A stretch of 34,574 bases of DNA from a bacterium (lineage in GTDB: Bacteria; Patescibacteriota; Patescibacteriia; SG8-24): positions 1-34,574 of the forward strand of contig JAHFIW010000014.1 in assembly GCA_023246195.1 (NCBI GenBank). The letters run 5' to 3'. Below the pieces are notes generated by a model that saw nothing but the letters and a program-made list of their open reading frames with translations, searched no databases and was not told where the DNA came from. Position numbers and translations under genes: made by a program. How positions within the stretch are numbered: the first letter of the stretch is position 1; the number at the start of each line of letters is the position of its first letter. This document shows, one piece after another, positions 4,364 to 25,746 of the stretch.

Positions 4364-5773
4364 ATGTCTACACCTTCAAAGGCTGAAAAAATGGAGAAAA
4401 TCGTCGGCTTGGCCAAGCGCCGCGGTTTCGTGTTTCCCGGCTCCGATATCTATGGCGGTATCGGCTCCACCTATGATTACGGGCCGCTGGGAGTGTTGCT
4501 CAAGAACAACATCCGCACGGCTTGGTGGAAGGCCATGACACAGGAACGTGATGACGTCGTCGGACTTGACTCCGCGATTTTGATGTCGCCAAAAGTGTGG
4601 GAAGCTTCGGGTCACTTGGCCGGATTCAGCGATCCTCTGGTGGACTGTAAGAACTGCAAGAAGCGCTGGCGTGCCGACCACCTGCTCGAAGCCAAGTCTG
4701 CCGAGATGGCGGGCTTGCGCGAGGCTCCGGTGGAGATGAAAGACGTGCGCTGCCCGGCGTGCGGCGGCGAGCTCGGCGAAGAGCGCCAGTTCAACATGAT
4801 GATGAAGACCTTTCTCGGTCCGGTAGAAGAAGCCGCCGCGGTCGTGTACTTGCGTCCGGAAACTGCGCAGGGCATCTTCGTGAACTTCAAGAACGCGCAG
4901 GAATCCGCCCGTAAGCGCGTGCCGTTCGGCATCGCCCAGGTCGGAAAATCTTTCCGCAACGAAATCACTCCCGGCAACTTCATCTTCCGCACCCGCGAGT
5001 TCGAGCAGATGGAAATGGAATTCTTCGTGAAGCCCGGCACCGACGAGGAATGGTTCGAGAGCTGGAAGCAGTTCATGATGGATTGGTTCACGCGTTTTGG
5101 CGTGAAGGCCGACAATCTGCGCTTTCTCGAACACGCCAAGGAAAAACTGTCGCACTATTCAAAGCGCACGGTCGACTTGGAGTACCAGTACCCGTGGGGC
5201 TGGGGCGAACTGTGGGGGTGCGCCAATCGCACGGACTTCGACCTGAAGCAGCACGAGAAGCACAGCGGCCAGGATCTTTCGTACCGCGATGACCTCACCA
5301 ACGAGCGTTATCACCCGTACGTCATCGAGCCCGCGCTCGGACTTGATCGCGCCATGCTCGTCTTCATGCTCGATGCCTATGAGGAGATCGACGGCGGACG
5401 CAGCACCACCACTGACGCGGTGAAGGACATCGAGACGGTGTTGCGCTTTCATCCGGCGATCGCGCCGATCAAGGCGGCGATATTTCCGTTGTCGAAGAAG
5501 GAGCCTCTGACGGGAATTGCCCACGAACTGCGCAATCGGTTAGCCCGGCGCTGGAGCGTGCAATATGACGAAACCGGCTCCGTCGGCAAGCGCTACCGCC
5601 GGCAAGATGAAATCGGTACGCCGTTCTGCATCACGGTCGACTTCCAGACGGTCGGTGAAGAGGGCGTTCCCGGCGACGACAAAGTCACCGTGCGCGACCG
5701 TGACACGATGTTGCAGGAGCGCGTTGCCATTTCTGAGCTTGAAAGCTATCTGGCGGCGAAGCTGGGCTGCTGA
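4364..5773 (+). CDS. glyS: glycyl-tRNA synthetase (alpha2 type)
   Basis: RRGFVFPGSDIYGGIGSTYDYGPLGVLLKNNI, RPETAQGIFVNFKN, FRNEITPGNFIFRTREFEQMEMEFF; start at MSTPSKAEK chosen 8 nt after a TATTTT -10 box. Confidence 0.95.
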   Translation: MSTPSKAEKMEKIVGLAKRRGFVFPGSDIYGGIGSTYDYGPLGVLLKNNIRTAWWKAMTQERDDVVGLDSAILMSPKVWEASGHLAGFSDPLVDCKNCKKRWRADHLLEAKSAEMAGLREAPVEMKDVRCPACGGELGEERQFNMMMKTFLGPVEEAAAVVYLRPETAQGIFVNFKNAQESARKRVPFGIAQVGKSFRNEITPGNFIFRTREFEQMEMEFFVKPGTDEEWFESWKQFMMDWFTRFGVKADNLRFLEHAKEKLSHYSKRTVDLEYQYPWGWGELWGCANRTDFDLKQHEKHSGQDLSYRDDLTNERYHPYVIEPALGLDRAMLVFMLDAYEEIDGGRSTTTDAVKDIETVLRFHPAIAPIKAAIFPLSKKEPLTGIAHELRNRLARRWSVQYDETGSVGKRYRRQDEIGTPFCITVDFQTVGEEGVPGDDKVTVRDRDTMLQERVAISELESYLAAKLGC

Positions 5774-5812
5774 TCTTTGTCGGACGTCTCCACTACTCAC
5801 ATCCTCAACTTC

Positions 5813-7096
5813 ATGATTCTTCATCAACAGCTGACTCTTTCCAATGGCACGCGCGTGGTGCTCGTGCCGCATCACGAGACCGAGGCCGTCACCTTGATGG
5901 CCCTGTATCAGGTGGGTTCCCGGCATGAGTCGGCTGCGTTGAGCGGCGCGGCGCACTTCATCGAGCACATGATGTTCAAGGGGACGCAGAAGCGGCCCAA
6001 CACCATGGCTATTTCGCGCGATCTTGATGCGGTCGGTGCGGACTATAACGCCTTCACGTACAAGGATTTTACCGGTTACTTCATTCGCCTGCAGTCCGAC
6101 AAGCTCGGTTTGGCGGTGGACATGCTCAATGACATGCTCTACCACTCGCGCTTTCGTGAAAGCGACGTGGAGCCGGAGCGCAAGGTCATATTCGAGGAGC
6201 TGCGCATGTACGACGATAATCCGATGATGGTGGTCGAGGAGCGCATGGAAGAAGAGCTCTACAGGGGTTCCAGTTTGGGGCGCCGCACCGGCGGCACGGT
6301 GGAAACCATGACGGGCATCAGCCGCGACGACCTGTTGGCCTTCCGCGACAAGCACTACATTCCGGGCAAGACGGTGTTGTCCCTGGCCGGTCGCTTCAAT
6401 CATGACGAAGCGGTGGCCATGTTGGAAAACACGTTCGGTAAAGTGGCCAAGGCGAAGATGCCGACGCCGTTTGCGCCGTTCTCGGCGGCGAAAGCCGGCA
6501 AGGGGCCGCGCGTGCGCGTGGAATTCAAGGAGAGCGAACAGGTGCAGCTGGCCATGGGCTGGCCGGCCTATTCGTACGCCGATCCGCGACTGTCCGCGCT
6601 CAAGGTCATGTGCATCATTCTCGGCGGCACCATGAGCTCGCGCCTGTTCATGCAGGTGCGCGAGAAGCGGGGACTGGCCTATTCGGTGAGCGCTTCCTCG
6701 AATCCGTATCAGGACGTCGGCAACGTCACCGTTCACGCGGGACTCGCCAAGGGCCGCTTTGATGCCGCACTCAAGGTCATCATCGCCGAGCTGGCTCGCA
6801 TGAAGGACAAGGACGTCACCGGCGAAGAGCTGAAGCGCGCCAAGGAATACTTCAAGGGCAAGATGGTCCTCGGCTTGGAGGATTCCAGCCGCCTCGCGGA
6901 CTGGTACGCGCGCCAGGAACTGCTGCAGGGCCGCGTGGAGACGCCGGACGAGCGCATCGCCAAGATGTTCGCGGTCACCAAGGCAGACGTGCGCAAGGCG
7001 GCCAATGACGTCTTCCGTCGTTCCATGGCGGCCATCGCGGTCATCGGTCCCTTCAAGGATCCCGCTCCTGTCGCCAAACATCTCGAGAAATTATAG
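5813..7096 (+). CDS. M16 family zinc peptidase
   Basis: inverted zinc motif HFIEHMMFKGT; RE-KRGLAYSVSA; an alternative start at 5777 is possible. Confidence 0.9.
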   Translation: MILHQQLTLSNGTRVVLVPHHETEAVTLMALYQVGSRHESAALSGAAHFIEHMMFKGTQKRPNTMAISRDLDAVGADYNAFTYKDFTGYFIRLQSDKLGLAVDMLNDMLYHSRFRESDVEPERKVIFEELRMYDDNPMMVVEERMEEELYRGSSLGRRTGGTVETMTGISRDDLLAFRDKHYIPGKTVLSLAGRFNHDEAVAMLENTFGKVAKAKMPTPFAPFSAAKAGKGPRVRVEFKESEQVQLAMGWPAYSYADPRLSALKVMCIILGGTMSSRLFMQVREKRGLAYSVSASSNPYQDVGNVTVHAGLAKGRFDAALKVIIAELARMKDKDVTGEELKRAKEYFKGKMVLGLEDSSRLADWYARQELLQGRVETPDERIAKMFAVTKADVRKAANDVFRRSMAAIAVIGPFKDPAPVAKHLEKL

Positions 7097-11258: not shown

Positions 11259-12077
11259 ATGCGCATTTATACCAAATCACCGATCAACCTCTCGACCCTT
11301 TCTCATGCTTGGAACAGGAGTACTGTTTTGGACGAATACAAGAAAAAAGGGCATTTTTCGTTGTTTCTTCTCGAGGCGATGTCGCGCGACACGCTGCCGG
11401 CGTTTTCCTACCAAGGCCGAAAACACCCGCTACAAAAATCACGGCGGTGGTACGGACATTTCGACCAGACGATCCGAGAATATTATTCACGCCATCGACC
11501 GACCATCTTACGCGCGACGAAGCGCGTTTCCTGTAAAGAAGCTGCACGGTTTCCGGGCAAACTCCGAAGCCTGATTGAATCGCTCGGCCCTTACAAGCTG
11601 CCATGCGACAAGGTAATTCTCTGCCCGAACCCGTTCGGCATGCAGGGTGAGGGTTACGGGCCATTGATCGGGCGGACGGCCTACGCCGTGTTCACGCCCG
11701 ACGCGCGTAAGGATCAGTCGTGGCTCATGGTCCATGAGACGTGCCATTCATTTCTCCTCCCGATTTTTCAATCCGCCGAGATCAAACGGCTGGTAAGATG
11801 CACGGAACCGCTGATGGTGAAATGGTCCACGAAAAAATTTCGAAAATATTATCCGAAATGGGAGTGGGTCGTCGAGGAGTACATGATTCATGCCATCGAG
11901 CAGCGGGCCACCGGAAGTTCCGTCAAGAAGAAAAAGTCGTGGGGCATGAACCGTTTGCCGTGGTTCATTGCGTCTTGGAAAGAGTTTCAACACCGCCGAC
12001 GTTCAGAATCGAATCTGTCTGTCGATATTTGGGTGAAAGAAACGTTGCACAAGATGCAAAAGCTGGCGGAAAAATGA
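11259..12077 (+). CDS. putative HExxH metallopeptidase-like protein
   Basis: SWLMVHETCHSFLLPIF with a downstream EEYMIHAIEQRA candidate third ligand. Confidence 0.55.
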   Translation: MRIYTKSPINLSTLSHAWNRSTVLDEYKKKGHFSLFLLEAMSRDTLPAFSYQGRKHPLQKSRRWYGHFDQTIREYYSRHRPTILRATKRVSCKEAARFPGKLRSLIESLGPYKLPCDKVILCPNPFGMQGEGYGPLIGRTAYAVFTPDARKDQSWLMVHETCHSFLLPIFQSAEIKRLVRCTEPLMVKWSTKKFRKYYPKWEWVVEEYMIHAIEQRATGSSVKKKKSWGMNRLPWFIASWKEFQHRRRSESNLSVDIWVKETLHKMQKLAEK

Positions 12078-14041: not shown

Positions 14042-14965
14042 ATGGAAATCACCTTCCGATTCAAGGTAGAAAGGTCAGCGAATTTTTACTTTTTCGTGCA
14101 GAATCTTTCGGAATGGGAGCCGTGGGCACGACTCGAAGCAAACGAGTTCTGGAGAACGAGCCTTGCGATACCAGAAGACGTTATCGCGAATCTGAAGGAT
14201 TTTGCGAGTATACACCGCATGTACCAGCGACCGGAAAACTTCCTGGGTCGATGGTTCTTCGGTTATAAAGATCCCTGGAAACAGTTGCGCCGCAGCCTAA
14301 GACCAAAGGAATTTGAGATCGTACGAAACGCCTTTTCCGCGTGTGAGCCTTTCTTTAATCGGCTTTGGATCAAGGAGGAAAAATCCCTGCGTAAATGGCA
14401 GTTCATCCTGACGAAACGCGCTGCGGAACTGCGACTAGCGAAAAAAATCATCCCCACCCTCGCCAGTCTTTATGGCGTTCGCTTCACGTCGAGGACGGTG
14501 ACGTCGCACCTGCTCCTGTCCGCCCCGAACTACCTGAGCGGCACATCCGGAAGATCGGGGGATGCGAGCATCATAATGGAGATTTCGCGGTTTCCGAAGG
14601 ATAAGCCTGCGGCGGTGCTTGGCCTGCTGTGGCACGAAACGATTCACTGTCTCTTCGACCGCCAATTCAAAAGGCTGGCTTCCAAAACCACGCGCAAGGC
14701 CGACGGAATGCGCATACACGAAATCGCGGCCGGTTCGCTGTTTCCTCGAGGCCCTCTCGGTCAGCGGGCATTGGGAACGAATCCTCCGAATAACCGCTAT
14801 TTTCGTGACGCTCCGGGCATGCAGGAGAACCTGTTCGGACTGATGCAGACGTACATCGATCAGGAGCGGGCCTTAGACCGGCAGTACGTCAAAGAGGTCG
14901 CAAAAATAAAAAGCCGCCCTGAGCAATCCCAAGGCGGGAGACAAGACGTCGATTACACGTCGTAG
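14042..14965 (+). CDS. putative HExxH metallopeptidase-like protein, convergent with the RiPP operon
   Basis: LLWHETIHCLFDRQF; preceded by TTGTCG-N17-GAGAAT ending 6 nt before the ATG. Confidence 0.55.
   Translation: MEITFRFKVERSANFYFFVQNLSEWEPWARLEANEFWRTSLAIPEDVIANLKDFASIHRMYQRPENFLGRWFFGYKDPWKQLRRSLRPKEFEIVRNAFSACEPFFNRLWIKEEKSLRKWQFILTKRAAELRLAKKIIPTLASLYGVRFTSRTVTSHLLLSAPNYLSGTSGRSGDASIIMEISRFPKDKPAAVLGLLWHETIHCLFDRQFKRLASKTTRKADGMRIHEIAAGSLFPRGPLGQRALGTNPPNNRYFRDAPGMQENLFGLMQTYIDQERALDRQYVKEVAKIKSRPEQSQGGRQDVDYTS
14902..14938 (-). terminator. intrinsic terminator for the radical SAM/precursor operon
   Basis: minus strand CCGCCTT-gggattgctc-AGGGCGG-CTTTTTATTTTT. Confidence 0.65.
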
Positions 14966-15141
14966 AAGACGACAGTGTTTTCGTAGTCTTGGTAGTTGTC
15001 GTGGTCGCCCCACTCTTCCGGGAGCGAGCCGCCTTCGGCAACTACTCTGTCGCGCATTTCCACGGTCGGCCGCCTGGCCATCCGCTTGAGAGCGGCAAGC
15101 ACTGCTGTCTTACCCTTCTGCTGCTGTGTTTCCGTTTGCAT
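14953..15141 (-). CDS. putative radical SAM RiPP precursor peptide (triceptide-like), 62 aa
   Basis: MQTETQQQKGKTAVLAALKRMARRPTVEMRDRVVAEGGSLPEEWGDHDNYQDYENTVVFYDV; AAGGAGGTGATACCA-ATG ribosome binding site; starts inside the 3' end of the rSAM gene. Confidence 0.82.
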   Translation of the reverse strand: MQTETQQQKGKTAVLAALKRMARRPTVEMRDRVVAEGGSLPEEWGDHDNYQDYENTVVFYDV

Positions 15142-16264
15142 TGGTATCACCTCCTTCCATCACCGCGTTGATCTTTTCCCTGAGGTAGGGAAAGATGGCT
15201 TTCCTTGTCTCGCAGTAGTAGTACTTTCCTGACAGCCCGCCCTTGCGATGGTGCGAGCAGCCGTTATGGCACACTTTTTGCCATTCGCAAGCGGCGCAAT
15301 CGGGATGCACCGCATTCACCTCCTCGGCGAACTTGAGCCGCCGCTCGCTGTTCAAAACGTCCAGAAGCGACGTGTCGGACAGATTCCCGTAGCACAGCTC
15401 GCTGCGATTGGCCAAGCGGTCGCAAGGAAAAACCCTACCATCGTACTCGACCGTGAAGTAAGCCGAGCATGTCCCGCTGTGCGTACAGCTCGAGGCGCAT
15501 CGGCCGACGATGCCCGCGAAGTAGTTATCGATTTCGCGGTGACGAATATTCGGATCGTCCATCTCGAACCAAAGGTCGATGAAGGCTTTAAGATACTCGG
15601 TGAGCTCCTTATTGCCCATCGTCTCGTTCAGCATGCGCCTGTTGATGTTGACGACGTCGAGGTACTCGCTCGTGCCCCAGGACTTCGCCTTGAGGACGTT
15701 CGCGAAGAACGTGAAGTCCTCACTCGCACGCGCTGCGTTCGCGGCCGTCAGCGTCTGGATAAAGCCGGGCTGAATCCCGTGCGCGCGCAGATGCGAGATA
15801 CCCCGCATCACCGCATCAAAAGAGCCAGACTCGTTGCGTCGCGTGCGGAAACGGTCGTGGCTGATCCGGTCACCGTCAAGACTGATGCCAACCTTAAACT
15901 TGTGCTCGGCGAAGAAGGCCGCCCAAGCGTCGTTGGCCAGCGTCGCGTTGGTCTGGACGACGTTCTGGATTTCGTGGTCCTTCCGGTACTTTTGCTGAAA
16001 AGTCAGGCTGCGTTCGAAGAACTTCATCCCCGCAAGCAGCGGCTCTCCACCGTGCCAGATGAACTGTACACGGCCCTGGAACAACTCCAGGTACTCTCGG
16101 ATGAAGCGCTCTTGAAGCTCCTCTGACATGACGTGCGGTGTCTGCTGATCCAGAGTGTTGTAGAAGCAGTAGGCACATCGCAAGTTGCAAAAATCGCCCA
16201 CTATCTTGATGATCGGAACCATCACCTTTTTCGACGACGTCTGAACAACGGCTAGTTTCCTCAT
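15110..16264 (-). CDS. radical SAM/SPASM peptide maturase
   Basis: CNLRCAYC (CX3CX2C), FIWHGGEPLLAG, KVGISLDGD; SPASM cysteines CSAYFTVEYDGRVFPCDRLAN...CAACEWQKVCHNGC...YYYC. Confidence 0.93.
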   Translation of the reverse strand: MRKLAVVQTSSKKVMVPIIKIVGDFCNLRCAYCFYNTLDQQTPHVMSEELQERFIREYLELFQGRVQFIWHGGEPLLAGMKFFERSLTFQQKYRKDHEIQNVVQTNATLANDAWAAFFAEHKFKVGISLDGDRISHDRFRTRRNESGSFDAVMRGISHLRAHGIQPGFIQTLTAANAARASEDFTFFANVLKAKSWGTSEYLDVVNINRRMLNETMGNKELTEYLKAFIDLWFEMDDPNIRHREIDNYFAGIVGRCASSCTHSGTCSAYFTVEYDGRVFPCDRLANRSELCYGNLSDTSLLDVLNSERRLKFAEEVNAVHPDCAACEWQKVCHNGCSHHRKGGLSGKYYYCETRKAIFPYLREKINAVMEGGDTNANGNTAAEG

Positions 16265-22229: not shown

Positions 22230-24005
22230 ATGGCCGATTCGAGGACTTCTGCCACGACCAAATCACCAAAGGGTTCCGCACGACCGAAGGGTCCGAGCCT
22301 GTTTTCGTTGCTCAGGCCCTATCGTGGGCTGATTGCGATGTTACTGCTGCTGACCGTGGCCTCCAATGCCCTCGGTTTGGCGCTGCCCAAGATCGTCGCC
22401 AACGCCATCGACGGCTACGGTCACGGCGCCTGGAGGGTCGAAACCCTTTTTTTCGAGTTTCTGACGATTGCGGTCTTGGTATTCGTTTTGACCTACCTGC
22501 TTAACATCGCGCAGACTTACGCTTCGGAACGCGTCGCATTCGACATGCGAAAGCAGCTGGCCTCCAAGATCTCTGAACAGGAATACGCCTATATCCAAAA
22601 GGCGACGCCGGCAAAACTGCTCACCAATCTTACTTCGGACATCGACGCGATCAAGACGTTCGTGTCGCAGGCCATCACCTCGATCATCTCCTCGGTATTC
22701 CTCATTTTCGGTGCCAGCGTGCTGTTGCTGTACATCGATTGGAAGTTGGCGTTGGTGGTGCTTGCCGTGGTGCCTTTCGTCGCGGCGATGATCACGGTGG
22801 TACTGCGCAGGGTTCGCAAGCTGTTCCGCAAGGTGCAGGAGGCCATCGACTGGCTCAACCGCATCATCAATGAGAGCATTTTCGGCGCCGCGCTGGTGCG
22901 CCTGCAGAATTCGCAGCAGTTCGAGTTCCAGAAGTTCCTGGCGGCCAACGCCCAGGCGCGGGATCTCGGCTTGGGCATCTTGCGCCTGTTCGCGATGATG
23001 ATTCCGGTCATCACGCTGGCGTCAAACGTGGCCACGCTGTCCATCCTTACCATCGGCGGGCATTTCGTCATTACTGGCGCGATGACCCTTGGCGACTTTA
23101 CGGCGTTCAACAGCTACCTGGCCATTCTCATCTTCCCGATCTTCATCATCGGTTTCATGAGCAACGTCATCGCGCAGGCACAGGCGTCATATTCGCGCGT
23201 GGCTGAAATCATGCACTGCGAGACGAGGAAAAAGGCCGGCAATTTGCAGGCGGTCGCGGGCGGCGACCTCTCGCTGAAGGGCATTACGGTCATCTTCGGG
23301 AATCGGAGCGCGCTCAAGAACGTTTCCATGACCGTGAAGGCCGGTACCAAGACGGCCATCATCGGCCCGACTGCTGCGGGCAAAACGCAGCTTCTGTACC
23401 TGCTTACCGGCCTGATTGAACCGACCCTTGGCACCGTGGAGTATGCCGGGCGCGCTATCGCGGACTACGATCCGGTGAGCCTGCATCGGCAAATCGGCTT
23501 CGTGTTTCAGGACAGCGTCATCTTCAACCTGACGGTGCGCGAGAACATCGCCTTCAGCAATACCGTCAACGATGCCGACTTGGCAAAGGCCATAGAGACT
23601 GCCGAACTGGCTGACTTCATAGATGCGCTGCCTGACAAGTTGGACACGGTCGTGTCCGAGAGGGGAACGAGCCTTTCTGGCGGGCAGAAGCAGCGCATCA
23701 TGTTGGCACGCGCCCTGGCGCTGAATCCCAGCGTGCTGCTGCTCGACGATTTCACCGCGCGTGTCGACACGCGGACGGAAAGGAGCATTCTCGAAAACGT
23801 CCGCAAAAACTATCCCGGCATCACTTTGATTTCCGTCACGCAAAAAGTCGCTACGGTGGAGGATTACGATCAGATCGTCGTGCTGATGGAGGGGGACATG
23901 CTGGCCTCCGGCACGCACGAACAGCTGATGAAGACCTCGAACGACTACGTGCTGATCCATGACTCGCAACGCAGCACCAATGCCTATGAATTACACGCTG
24001 AGTAA
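22230..24005 (+). CDS. ABC exporter half-transporter, subunit 1 (degenerate ATPase site)
   Basis: TM domain; Walker A IIGPTAAGKT; LSGGQ; Walker B LLLDDFTARVD with D in place of the catalytic E; H-loop replaced by Q (SVTQKVAT). Confidence 0.92.
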   Translation: MADSRTSATTKSPKGSARPKGPSLFSLLRPYRGLIAMLLLLTVASNALGLALPKIVANAIDGYGHGAWRVETLFFEFLTIAVLVFVLTYLLNIAQTYASERVAFDMRKQLASKISEQEYAYIQKATPAKLLTNLTSDIDAIKTFVSQAITSIISSVFLIFGASVLLLYIDWKLALVVLAVVPFVAAMITVVLRRVRKLFRKVQEAIDWLNRIINESIFGAALVRLQNSQQFEFQKFLAANAQARDLGLGILRLFAMMIPVITLASNVATLSILTIGGHFVITGAMTLGDFTAFNSYLAILIFPIFIIGFMSNVIAQAQASYSRVAEIMHCETRKKAGNLQAVAGGDLSLKGITVIFGNRSALKNVSMTVKAGTKTAIIGPTAAGKTQLLYLLTGLIEPTLGTVEYAGRAIADYDPVSLHRQIGFVFQDSVIFNLTVRENIAFSNTVNDADLAKAIETAELADFIDALPDKLDTVVSERGTSLSGGQKQRIMLARALALNPSVLLLDDFTARVDTRTERSILENVRKNYPGITLISVTQKVATVEDYDQIVVLMEGDMLASGTHEQLMKTSNDYVLIHDSQRSTNAYELHAE

Positions 24006-25746
24006 GTCGTCCGGGCCGGCAGCGCCCGTCGAGGCCGGCTACGCGTCACTGAGGCGCCTGCTGCCGCTGCTCAAGGGAGAGAAGCGTAATTTGGCATGGA
24101 CCGGCATTTCCATCGTCATCTCTTCCGCGGGCACGTTGGCGGCACCGCTGATCATCGGACGCACCATCGACACGTCCATCCGCAATAAGGATTTTGGCGG
24201 AGTGCTGGTTTCGGCAGCGTTGCTGGTGGTCATGTATCTGACGGTGCTCGTCGCCAGCTACGTCCAGACCATCCGCATGGGCACCGTCGGCAGACGGGTG
24301 CTTTTCAGCCTCCGCAACCTCCTGTTCAGCAAGTTGCAGGAATTGCCCGTGGCGTTTTTCAATCAGAACAAGACGGGCGACTTGATCTCGCGCATCAATA
24401 ATGACACCGAGAAGCTTAACCAGTTTTTCGCGCAGGGGTTGGTGCAGTTCGTTCGCAGCTATTTCATGATGCTGGCCACCGGCATCTTCCTGCTCGTCCT
24501 GAATCTCAGGCTCGGGGCGGCATCGCTGCTGCCGGCGTTAGGCGTGCTCGTCCTCACGCAGGTGATTTCGCCATGGGTCAAGCGCAAGAACCAGAAGAGC
24601 CTGCAGACCACCGGCAGTTTGAGCGCCGAAATTCAGGAGAGCCTGAGCAATTTCAAGGTCATCGCGGCCTTTAACCGTTTCGATTATTTCCGTGAGAAGT
24701 TCGACGGCGCCAACCGGGAAAATTTCACGTCGTCCGTCGGTGCCGGATTGGCCAACGGCGTTTTCGTTCCCGTTTACGGATTGGCTTCGAGTTTGGCGCA
24801 GCTCACCGTTCTCGCGTATGGCATCATGCTGGTCACTACCGGTCATTTGACCGTAGGTCTGCTGATCGGGTTCATGCTGTACGTCGATAACTTTTATATG
24901 CCGCTACGGCAGGTTGCCTCGATCTGGTCGTCACTGCAGCTGGCGCTTGCCGCGTTAGATCGCGTCTCCGAAGTGCTGGCGCTCGAGTCCGACATGTCCG
25001 TGATTCCGGCAGAATCGCACGTTTCAAAGGCCGTATTGGAATTCCGCGACGTCTCCTTCCGTTATTCCGGCGGCAAGGACGTGCTTCGAAACGTGACGTT
25101 TGCCCTTGAGGCGGGAAAGACCTATGCGCTTGTGGGTCCCACCGGCGGAGGCAAGACCACCACCGCCTCTCTGATGGCCCGTCTGTACGATTCCACCGAG
25201 GGCATCGTGCTGCTTGGCGGACGCGACATCCGTTCCTATCAGCCGGAGGAACGTACGAAGAAGATCGGTTTCATATTGCAGGAGCCGTTCCTGTTTTCCG
25301 GCAGCGTGCTCGACAACATCTTTTACGGAAACGCCGACTTCATCGGCAGCTCCGACGAGCAAAGGGCGGAAGCCGTCGCGCAGGCGGGCCTGGGCAACTT
25401 GCTGGAGCGGTTCGAGCGCGGTTTTGATTCCAAGATCGAGACGAGCGGCGATGCCATCAGTCTCGGTCAGCGGCAGCTCATCGCCTTCATGCGAGCGGTG
25501 CTGCGCAATCCGGAATTCCTGGTGCTCGACGAGGCCACGGCCAATATCGATACCGTCACCGAAAAGCTGCTGGAGGAGACTCTCCGCGCCTTGCCCAAAG
25601 AAACGACGAAGGTCATCATCGCGCACCGGCTTAATACCATCGAGAGCGCTGATGAGATATTTTTCGTGAACGGCGGAGAGTTGCAGCGCGCCGGCTCGCT
25701 TCAGAATGCCGTGGACATGCTGATGAAAGGCAAGAGGGAGAGCTAG
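23983..25746 (+). CDS. ABC exporter half-transporter, subunit 2
   Basis: Walker A LVGPTGGGKTT; signature ISLGQRQ; Walker B LVLDEATANID; H-loop IIAHRLNTI; overlaps subunit 1. Confidence 0.92.
   Translation, partial: PMNYTLSKSSGPAAPVEAGYASLRRLLPLLKGEKRNLAWTGISIVISSAGTLAAPLIIGRTIDTSIRNKDFGGVLVSAALLVVMYLTVLVASYVQTIRMGTVGRRVLFSLRNLLFSKLQELPVAFFNQNKTGDLISRINNDTEKLNQFFAQGLVQFVRSYFMMLATGIFLLVLNLRLGAASLLPALGVLVLTQVISPWVKRKNQKSLQTTGSLSAEIQESLSNFKVIAAFNRFDYFREKFDGANRENFTSSVGAGLANGVFVPVYGLASSLAQLTVLAYGIMLVTTGHLTVGLLIGFMLYVDNFYMPLRQVASIWSSLQLALAALDRVSEVLALESDMSVIPAESHVSKAVLEFRDVSFRYSGGKDVLRNVTFALEAGKTYALVGPTGGGKTTTASLMARLYDSTEGIVLLGGRDIRSYQPEERTKKIGFILQEPFLFSGSVLDNIFYGNADFIGSSDEQRAEAVAQAGLGNLLERFERGFDSKIETSGDAISLGQRQLIAFMRAVLRNPEFLVLDEATANIDTVTEKLLEETLRALPKETTKVIIAHRLNTIESADEIFFVNGGELQRAGSLQNAVDMLMKGKRES

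Follow-up and report, generated by a model that had tools for sequence, protein, structure and literature searches.

The locus occupies about 2.3 kb of the window (by which we mean the whole stretch of DNA analysed, 34,574 nucleotides, contig 16 of a genome of 1.17 Mb that is 98% complete) and consists of three genes, collected with their features in Table 1. The gene for a radical SAM (rSAM)/SPASM maturase and that for a short precursor lie on the minus strand and overlap at 15110-15141; the two frames fall where the first-pass annotation had put them, with the 62-residue size and the 32-bp overlap it described. The pair it recognised thus stands, but its gene set was incomplete, as it missed a conserved third gene (14042-14965), encoding an HExxH protein, which is convergent with the precursor gene, the 3' ends of the two overlapping by 13 bp. 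The maturase and precursor genes are best explained as co-transcribed from the minus strand. The terminator-like hairpin behind the precursor (14937-14914, minus strand) has a 10-bp stem with 7 G-C pairs, followed by CTTTTTATTT, and is taken as supportive rather than decisive, since the region holds four terminator-like sites against 2.9 expected from shuffled sequence, a difference that is not significant. A search of a viral collection returned only five distant relatives, at 26-31%, so there is no sign of a mobile carrier; the GC content of the locus shows no contrast with its flanks. Two overlapping MsbA-like ABC half-transporters at 22230-25746 (plus strand) were weighed as possible exporters and discounted, because they lie 6 kb off and no exporter recurs across the maturase neighbourhoods compared. 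The Nudix and CYTH neighbours were also dropped as cassette parts for lack of recurrence (one other Nudix match only). A second HExxH protein of the window, 272 amino acids long (11259-12077, plus strand), carries the motif VHETCHSF, its sole likeness to the cassette's HExxH protein, and weakly matches DUF4932 (E 0.0056).

Table 1. Features of the three-gene cassette, by position in the window.
Feature	Position	Strand	Basis
Radical SAM/SPASM peptide maturase (predicted), 384 aa	15110..16264	-	PF04055, PF13186, CX3CX2C and eight SPASM cysteines
RiPP precursor (predicted), 62 aa, ATG start, 32-bp overlap with maturase gene	14953..15141	-	Sequence, homologous small ORFs
Conserved leader motif AVLAALKRM	15079..15105	-	Alignment of 17 precursors
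Core WGD-HDN-YQD-YEN-TVV-FYD	14959..15012	-	Sequence, offset test
Shine-Dalgarno and spacer GGAGGTGATACCA, within 3' end of maturase gene	15142..15154	-	Sequence
Terminator-like hairpin, 16 nt 3' of precursor stop	14914..14937	-	Stem and T-rich tail
Partner HExxH protein, 307 aa, putative zincin-type metallopeptidase, new family	14042..14965	+	Recurrent linkage, invariant residues
HETIH metal-binding motif, partner residues 198-202	14633..14647	+	H, E and H invariant in 20 homologues
Partner E227, 25 residues past HETIH, likely third metal ligand (gluzincin-like spacing)	14720..14722	+	Invariant in 20 homologues

The maturase matches Pfam models PF04055 (7e-17) and PF13186 (9e-10). Its CX3CX2C motif (C26, C30 and C33) and SPASM cysteines (C260, C266, C281, C323, C326, C332, C336 and C351), both of which had been noticed at first reading, are invariant in an alignment of the five closest maturases. 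The enzyme is not a member of the XyeB, GrrM or FxsB families that the first-pass annotation had cited, the protein scoring below the curated NCBIfam cut-offs for XyeB (107 bits against 450), GrrM/OscB (136 against 310) and FxsB (110 against 370), as well as for YhhB (137 against 445) and AmcB (137 against 425). The best NCBIfam score is to the anaerobic sulfatase maturase (anSME), TIGR03942, at 275.8 bits (cut-off 349.45), and the second to DynA, NF041298, at 245.9 bits (cut-off 450), which makes DynA the nearest peptide-maturase model. With an AlphaFold model of the enzyme (pLDDT 93), Foldseek found anSMEcpe (TM 0.85) and ChlB (TM 0.84); D282 of the maturase aligns with the catalytic residue of anSME, Asp277.

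Searching the genome collection with the single maturase gave nothing, while an alignment of five relatives as query gave 80 loci. The related maturases are 33-57% identical and come mostly from Patescibacteria; at E<=1e-40, and not counting the window's genome, a relative was found in 8 of the 381 genomes sampled from the class and in 12 of the 380 from the phylum. One maturase of the phylum sample (G462) is probably a true sulfatase maturase, since a sulfatase-like ORF of 784 amino acids adjoins it. Distribution is patchy, as all nine of the remaining genomes in the family to which the window belongs are without a close relative. In the tree, the window maturase falls in a 14-row clade (support 100/100) of Zambryski-, Wolfe-, WWE3-, Nomura- and other Patescibacteria together with members of the Bacteroidales and Chitinophagaceae, while the sulfatase-linked enzymes form a distinct clade (100/100) and the DynA enzymes another (100/100). 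The maturase-first gene order and the Patescibacteria/CPR host, both proposed from the sequence alone, hold in this genome comparison.

The window precursor reads MQTETQQQKGKTAVLAALKRMARRPTVEMRDRVVAEGGSLPEEWGDHDNYQDYENTVVFYDV. On the minus strand it is preceded by ggaggtgataccaATG, an almost ideal Shine-Dalgarno sequence, which agrees with the strong ribosome-binding site reported earlier and is the reason why we prefer the ATG at 15141 to the GTG at 15150 chosen by the automatic ORF call. After EE, the C-terminus runs W44-G-D, H47-D-N, Y50-Q-D, Y53-E-N, T-V-V, F59-Y-D, V62, exactly the parse of the first-pass annotation, so that the core holds five triplets in which an aromatic residue or His is followed two residues on by Asp or Asn, four of them consecutive. 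Five such +2 pairs in the last 30 residues were reached by only 2 of 10,000 shuffles of the residues. The precursor has no cysteine, hence none of the cysteine donors of ranthipeptides and sactipeptides, and a thioether is thereby impossible.

Of particular value are the small ORFs that adjoin the related maturases. They have a conserved leader, A-I-x-G-A-L-x-R (consensus A-I/V/L-x-G-A-L/F/I-x-R-I/M in an alignment of 17 precursors), and a variable core of tandem triplets, and the expectation that homologous maturases would keep such a neighbour is thus borne out. Candidate precursors were found at all 14 close-clade loci, nearly all with the leader motif or a recognisable version of it; L094 and L095 have the weakest candidates, and that of L100 lies upstream of its maturase instead of downstream. 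The cores are wholly different from one another: WGDHDNYQDYEN in the window, WQQWGDWDN in L087, WKNWPDWENETDFPNWEN in L090, NYGDHWDNYDDHWDNYDDHVDFPD in L092, WDNYEDFVDFPD in L093 and WRGDWDKWDNWDQWDQ in L098. What they share is spacing. When the 17 leader-bearing precursors of the window clade and its sister clade were pooled, Asp or Asn stood at +2 from an aromatic residue or His in 57 cases where chance would give 24.3 (z 8.7), with some precursors outside the leader-bearing clade having been chosen partly by motif; offsets +1, +3, +4 and +6 were at expectation (z -1.4 for +3), and the excess at +5 (z 3.8) arises because tandem triplets echo the +2 spacing. Leaving aside the sulfatase, DynA and Bacilli groups, 35 loci remain, of which 19 have an adjacent small ORF with at least three triplets, that of L099 seeming spurious; such an ORF is present at none of 29 loci in the sulfatase-maturase clade and at none of 6 in the DynA clade; in a control scan, 2.8% of random positions had as many. 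The third triplet position is Gly, Gln, Lys or Glu in some relatives, and specificity there would thus be looser than Asp/Asn. Decay of the small ORF in relatives, which the first-pass annotation had raised as a contrary outcome, was tested, and purifying selection was found instead: in pairs of related precursors dN is 0.09-0.46 and dS 0.45-2.0, for a dN/dS of about 0.1-0.4, values that come from homologues, the window copy having no close relative in the comparison. With dN well below dS, the homologous precursors are real, constrained proteins.

Several other loci are of interest in their own right. In a related group of loci (L110, L112, L119, L120, L121, L126, L128 and L158) the precursors contain repeated W-D-K triplets and have a near-fixed end, PWDKGHWANRK, and they are accompanied by a divergent HExxH partner; this looks like a conserved-core branch, as against the hypervariable one. 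The maturases of Bacilli MAGs at L105, L106, L108 and L114 are followed by tiny precursors ending in NWRGTLSNWIKC, no HExxH partner was found at these loci, and they may represent a distinct RiPP. Directly upstream of the maturase of L136 (Woesearchaeota), which branches with the Aenigmatarchaeota enzyme of L160 near DynA, is an ORF of 96 amino acids that ends about 5 bases before that maturase, at 4971, and has tandem W/Y-x-E/D triplets, YKEYKDYKDYDDKYHTDEWV, at its C-terminus. A much longer open frame lies 3' of the L095 maturase (5450-5950), with many W-x-D triplets over more than 100 residues, and in L143 (Chloroflexota) a 77-residue ORF ending in VGYSDYSDYSDEHHDDDEEATFPEDYGS is found about 191 bases 3' of the maturase.

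Homologues of the HExxH partner adjoin 29 of 46 related maturases. In the close clade the gene is present at 9 of the 14 loci, in every case convergent as in the window, and missing from 5. Among the 380 phylum genomes there are 14 partner copies, 10 beside a maturase and 4 not, as counted with a profile built largely from those 10 maturase-adjacent copies. At L181, L182, L183 (where the frame is interrupted) and L184, partner-type HExxH genes stand with no maturase or triplet precursor nearby. Across 20 partner homologues seven residues never vary (N14, E180, H198, E199, H202, E227 and G237), and the HExxH-x24-E arrangement, that is, the zincin/gluzincin HExxH plus a downstream Glu, is conserved across them. 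The window protein has no family match in Pfam or NCBIfam; five of the 20 family members weakly resemble SprT-like zincins (best 6.7e-5), and none of the 20 matches the alpha-ketoglutarate (aKG)-HExxH models (IPR026337, the H domain of ChlB). Its AlphaFold model (pLDDT 87.3, pTM 0.86) found no significant match among PDB folds (best E 1.8) or among viral models, where several of the weak matches were to peptidases. In L098 (1841-2650) and L100 (429-1250), two loci of the close clade that lack the partner, TraB/PrgY/GumN-like proteins just below the Pfam cut-off are found instead, and by sequence clustering L101, L107 and L109 possibly have proteins related to these. The TraB/PrgY/GumN lineage includes metalloproteases.

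The locus is best read as encoding a triceptide-type multi-cyclophane RiPP with a maturase of a distinct clade, and it is probable, in our judgement, that maturase, tandem-cyclophane precursor and HExxH processing enzyme constitute a three-gene RiPP cassette, their linkage being recurrent across related loci. We infer the ring chemistry, the number of rings, the peptidase role and the eventual function of the peptide as follows. The N-terminal leader, A-I-x-G-A-L-x-R, would dock on the rSAM/SPASM maturase, which by way of 5'-deoxyadenosyl radicals would form a bond between the side chain of every aromatic residue or His and C-beta of the Asp or Asn two residues on, giving up to five three-residue cyclophanes (WGD, HDN, YQD, YEN and FYD), with a mass loss of about 2 Da per ring. 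Processing of the product would then fall to the metalloenzyme of the convergent gene, with its HExxH-x24-E site, and the finished peptide might act toward hosts or competitors. The rings known from 3-CyFEs include Trp-x-Asn/Asp, Phe-x-Asn, Tyr-x-Asp and His-x-Ala/Arg (PMC11002830), so that every ring type predicted here has a direct or a near precedent. What speaks against the cassette is that its maturase falls short of every cyclophane-maturase HMM cut-off and has its best sub-cut-off score with anSME, that four HExxH homologues have no maturase nearby and five close-clade loci no HExxH gene, that the partner's fold is unlike any solved peptidase, and that the third triplet position is less strict than the window core would suggest.

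Among the alternatives, an anaerobic sulfatase maturase beside an incidental small ORF would agree with the top HMM and structure matches and with the aligned Asp277, yet the score is below cut-off, no match to PF00884 was found in the host genome (barring a sulfatase in the missing 2%), which excludes a sulfatase role there, and the sulfatase-linked enzymes stand apart in their own clade without triplet ORFs. The missing sulfatase and the separate clade lead us to reject this identity as very improbable. Still less credence can be given to the notion that the 62-residue ORF is a chance or decaying frame: although the dN/dS values come from its homologues, the near-ideal ribosome-binding site, the conserved leader, the triplets, the same position in relatives and the selection on those homologues all tell against it. 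If the ORF is a true substrate, the maturase could nonetheless perform some other peptide chemistry, such as ether or C-N bond formation, an i to i+3 link of the dynobactin type, or a ring-free modification at the beta carbon of Asp or Asn. DynA, as nearest peptide-maturase model, points in this direction, and the wider anSME-like subfamily also has TvgB, with its cyclopropylglycine (PMC11002830). We nevertheless think such chemistry unlikely, since spacing is strongly enriched at +2 and not at +3, an offset result that disfavours DynA-like i+3 chemistry in particular, the lack of cysteine removes thioethers, and the DynA enzymes form a separate clade without triplet ORFs.

The partner raises a question of the same kind, for the maturase and precursor could stand as a RiPP pair with the HExxH protein as an aKG/Fe hydroxylase, adding beta-hydroxyl groups to ring Asp or His as the ChlB-fused domain does. 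This reading keeps a place because ChlB-type HExxH enzymes, which were annotated at first as peptidases, act on cyclophanes that have already formed, hydroxylating their Asp and His (PMC12636437); the window precursor offers many ring Asp residues and a His, and linkage of the partner to the maturase is strong. It is doubtful all the same. No partner family member matches an aKG-HExxH model, whereas some are weakly SprT-like; the fold search returned no such enzyme, the HExxH-x24-E pattern resembles a gluzincin metal site, and fermentative, oxygen-poor Patescibacteria would presumably be poor hosts for an enzyme dependent on O2 and aKG. Because an unrelated putative peptidase of the TraB/GumN kind occupies the partner's place in two loci, and because of the zincin-like motif and the absence of any aKG-HExxH match, a processing peptidase is favoured, and the partner would most likely act by removing the leader.

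New here are the tandem triplet array, the maturase lineage and the partner protein. A broader proposal, for which we would put the chances at slightly below even, is that multi-cyclophane peptides form a large superfamily, not yet described, that is common to the Patescibacteria, with an anSME-like maturase clade, one fixed leader, hypervariable ring arrays and a metalloprotease finisher of unsolved fold, scattered also in Bacteroidota, Planctomycetota, Caldisericota, Chloroflexota and DPANN archaea, its changing cores serving as tools of episymbionts toward hosts or rivals. Patescibacteria have reduced genomes from which most biosynthesis is missing, and they probably live on other cells; the host of the cassette would thus be a very small and probably parasitic bacterium. 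A literature search gave no account of cyclophane RiPPs in this phylum, while published triceptide networks may already include some of the sequences. If the cassette is what it appears to be, it would supply a concrete, testable class of effectors or signals for the cell contacts of Patescibacteria and widen triceptide chemistry to include tandem rings, the work of a maturase lineage unlike those characterised; such maturases could serve as catalysts for stapling consecutive aromatic-x-Asp/Asn triplets, and the HExxH partner may offer a new enzyme for leader removal.

Among known systems, the triceptides and their 3-CyFEs (XncB/XyeB, OscB/GrrM, MscB/FxsB, YxdB, HaaB and YhhB) are alike in having an rSAM/SPASM maturase and a small adjacent precursor, whose C-terminal core, behind a conserved leader, carries Omega1-X2-X3 motifs that in many cases end in Asn or Asp; YxdB forms a Tyr-x-Asp ring (PMC11002830). 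The present system differs in its maturase, which is below every family cut-off tested, in its tandem cores of up to five or more adjacent triplets behind the A-I-x-G-A-L-x-R leader, in its HExxH partner, which is encoded separately and represents a new family, and in its Patescibacteria hosts. ChlB, a multiple cyclophane synthase fused to an aKG-HExxH hydroxylase, resembles it in maturase fold, in involving an HExxH protein and in the several cyclophanes per precursor that we predict, but is only 22% identical, and the HExxH protein here is encoded by a separate convergent gene and matches the ChlB domain in neither sequence nor fold. DynA, the closest peptide-maturase HMM and similar in length, belongs to another clade, its cut-off is missed, and it goes with dynobactin-type precursors rather than tandem +2 triplets. 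The anSMEs are the best match in HMM, sequence and structure, and the position of their catalytic Asp is kept; here, however, the host genome is without a sulfatase and the enzyme has a small precursor as its partner. RiPP clusters have been published from the same bacterial group, in the form of the Candidate Phyla Radiation (CPR) graspetides (PMC8939145), and an antiSMASH survey of CPR genomes listed 16 regions related to RiPPs, most of them YcaO (PMC12153355); the graspetides differ from the system described here in their ATP-grasp ester and amide chemistry and have unrelated enzymes and precursors.
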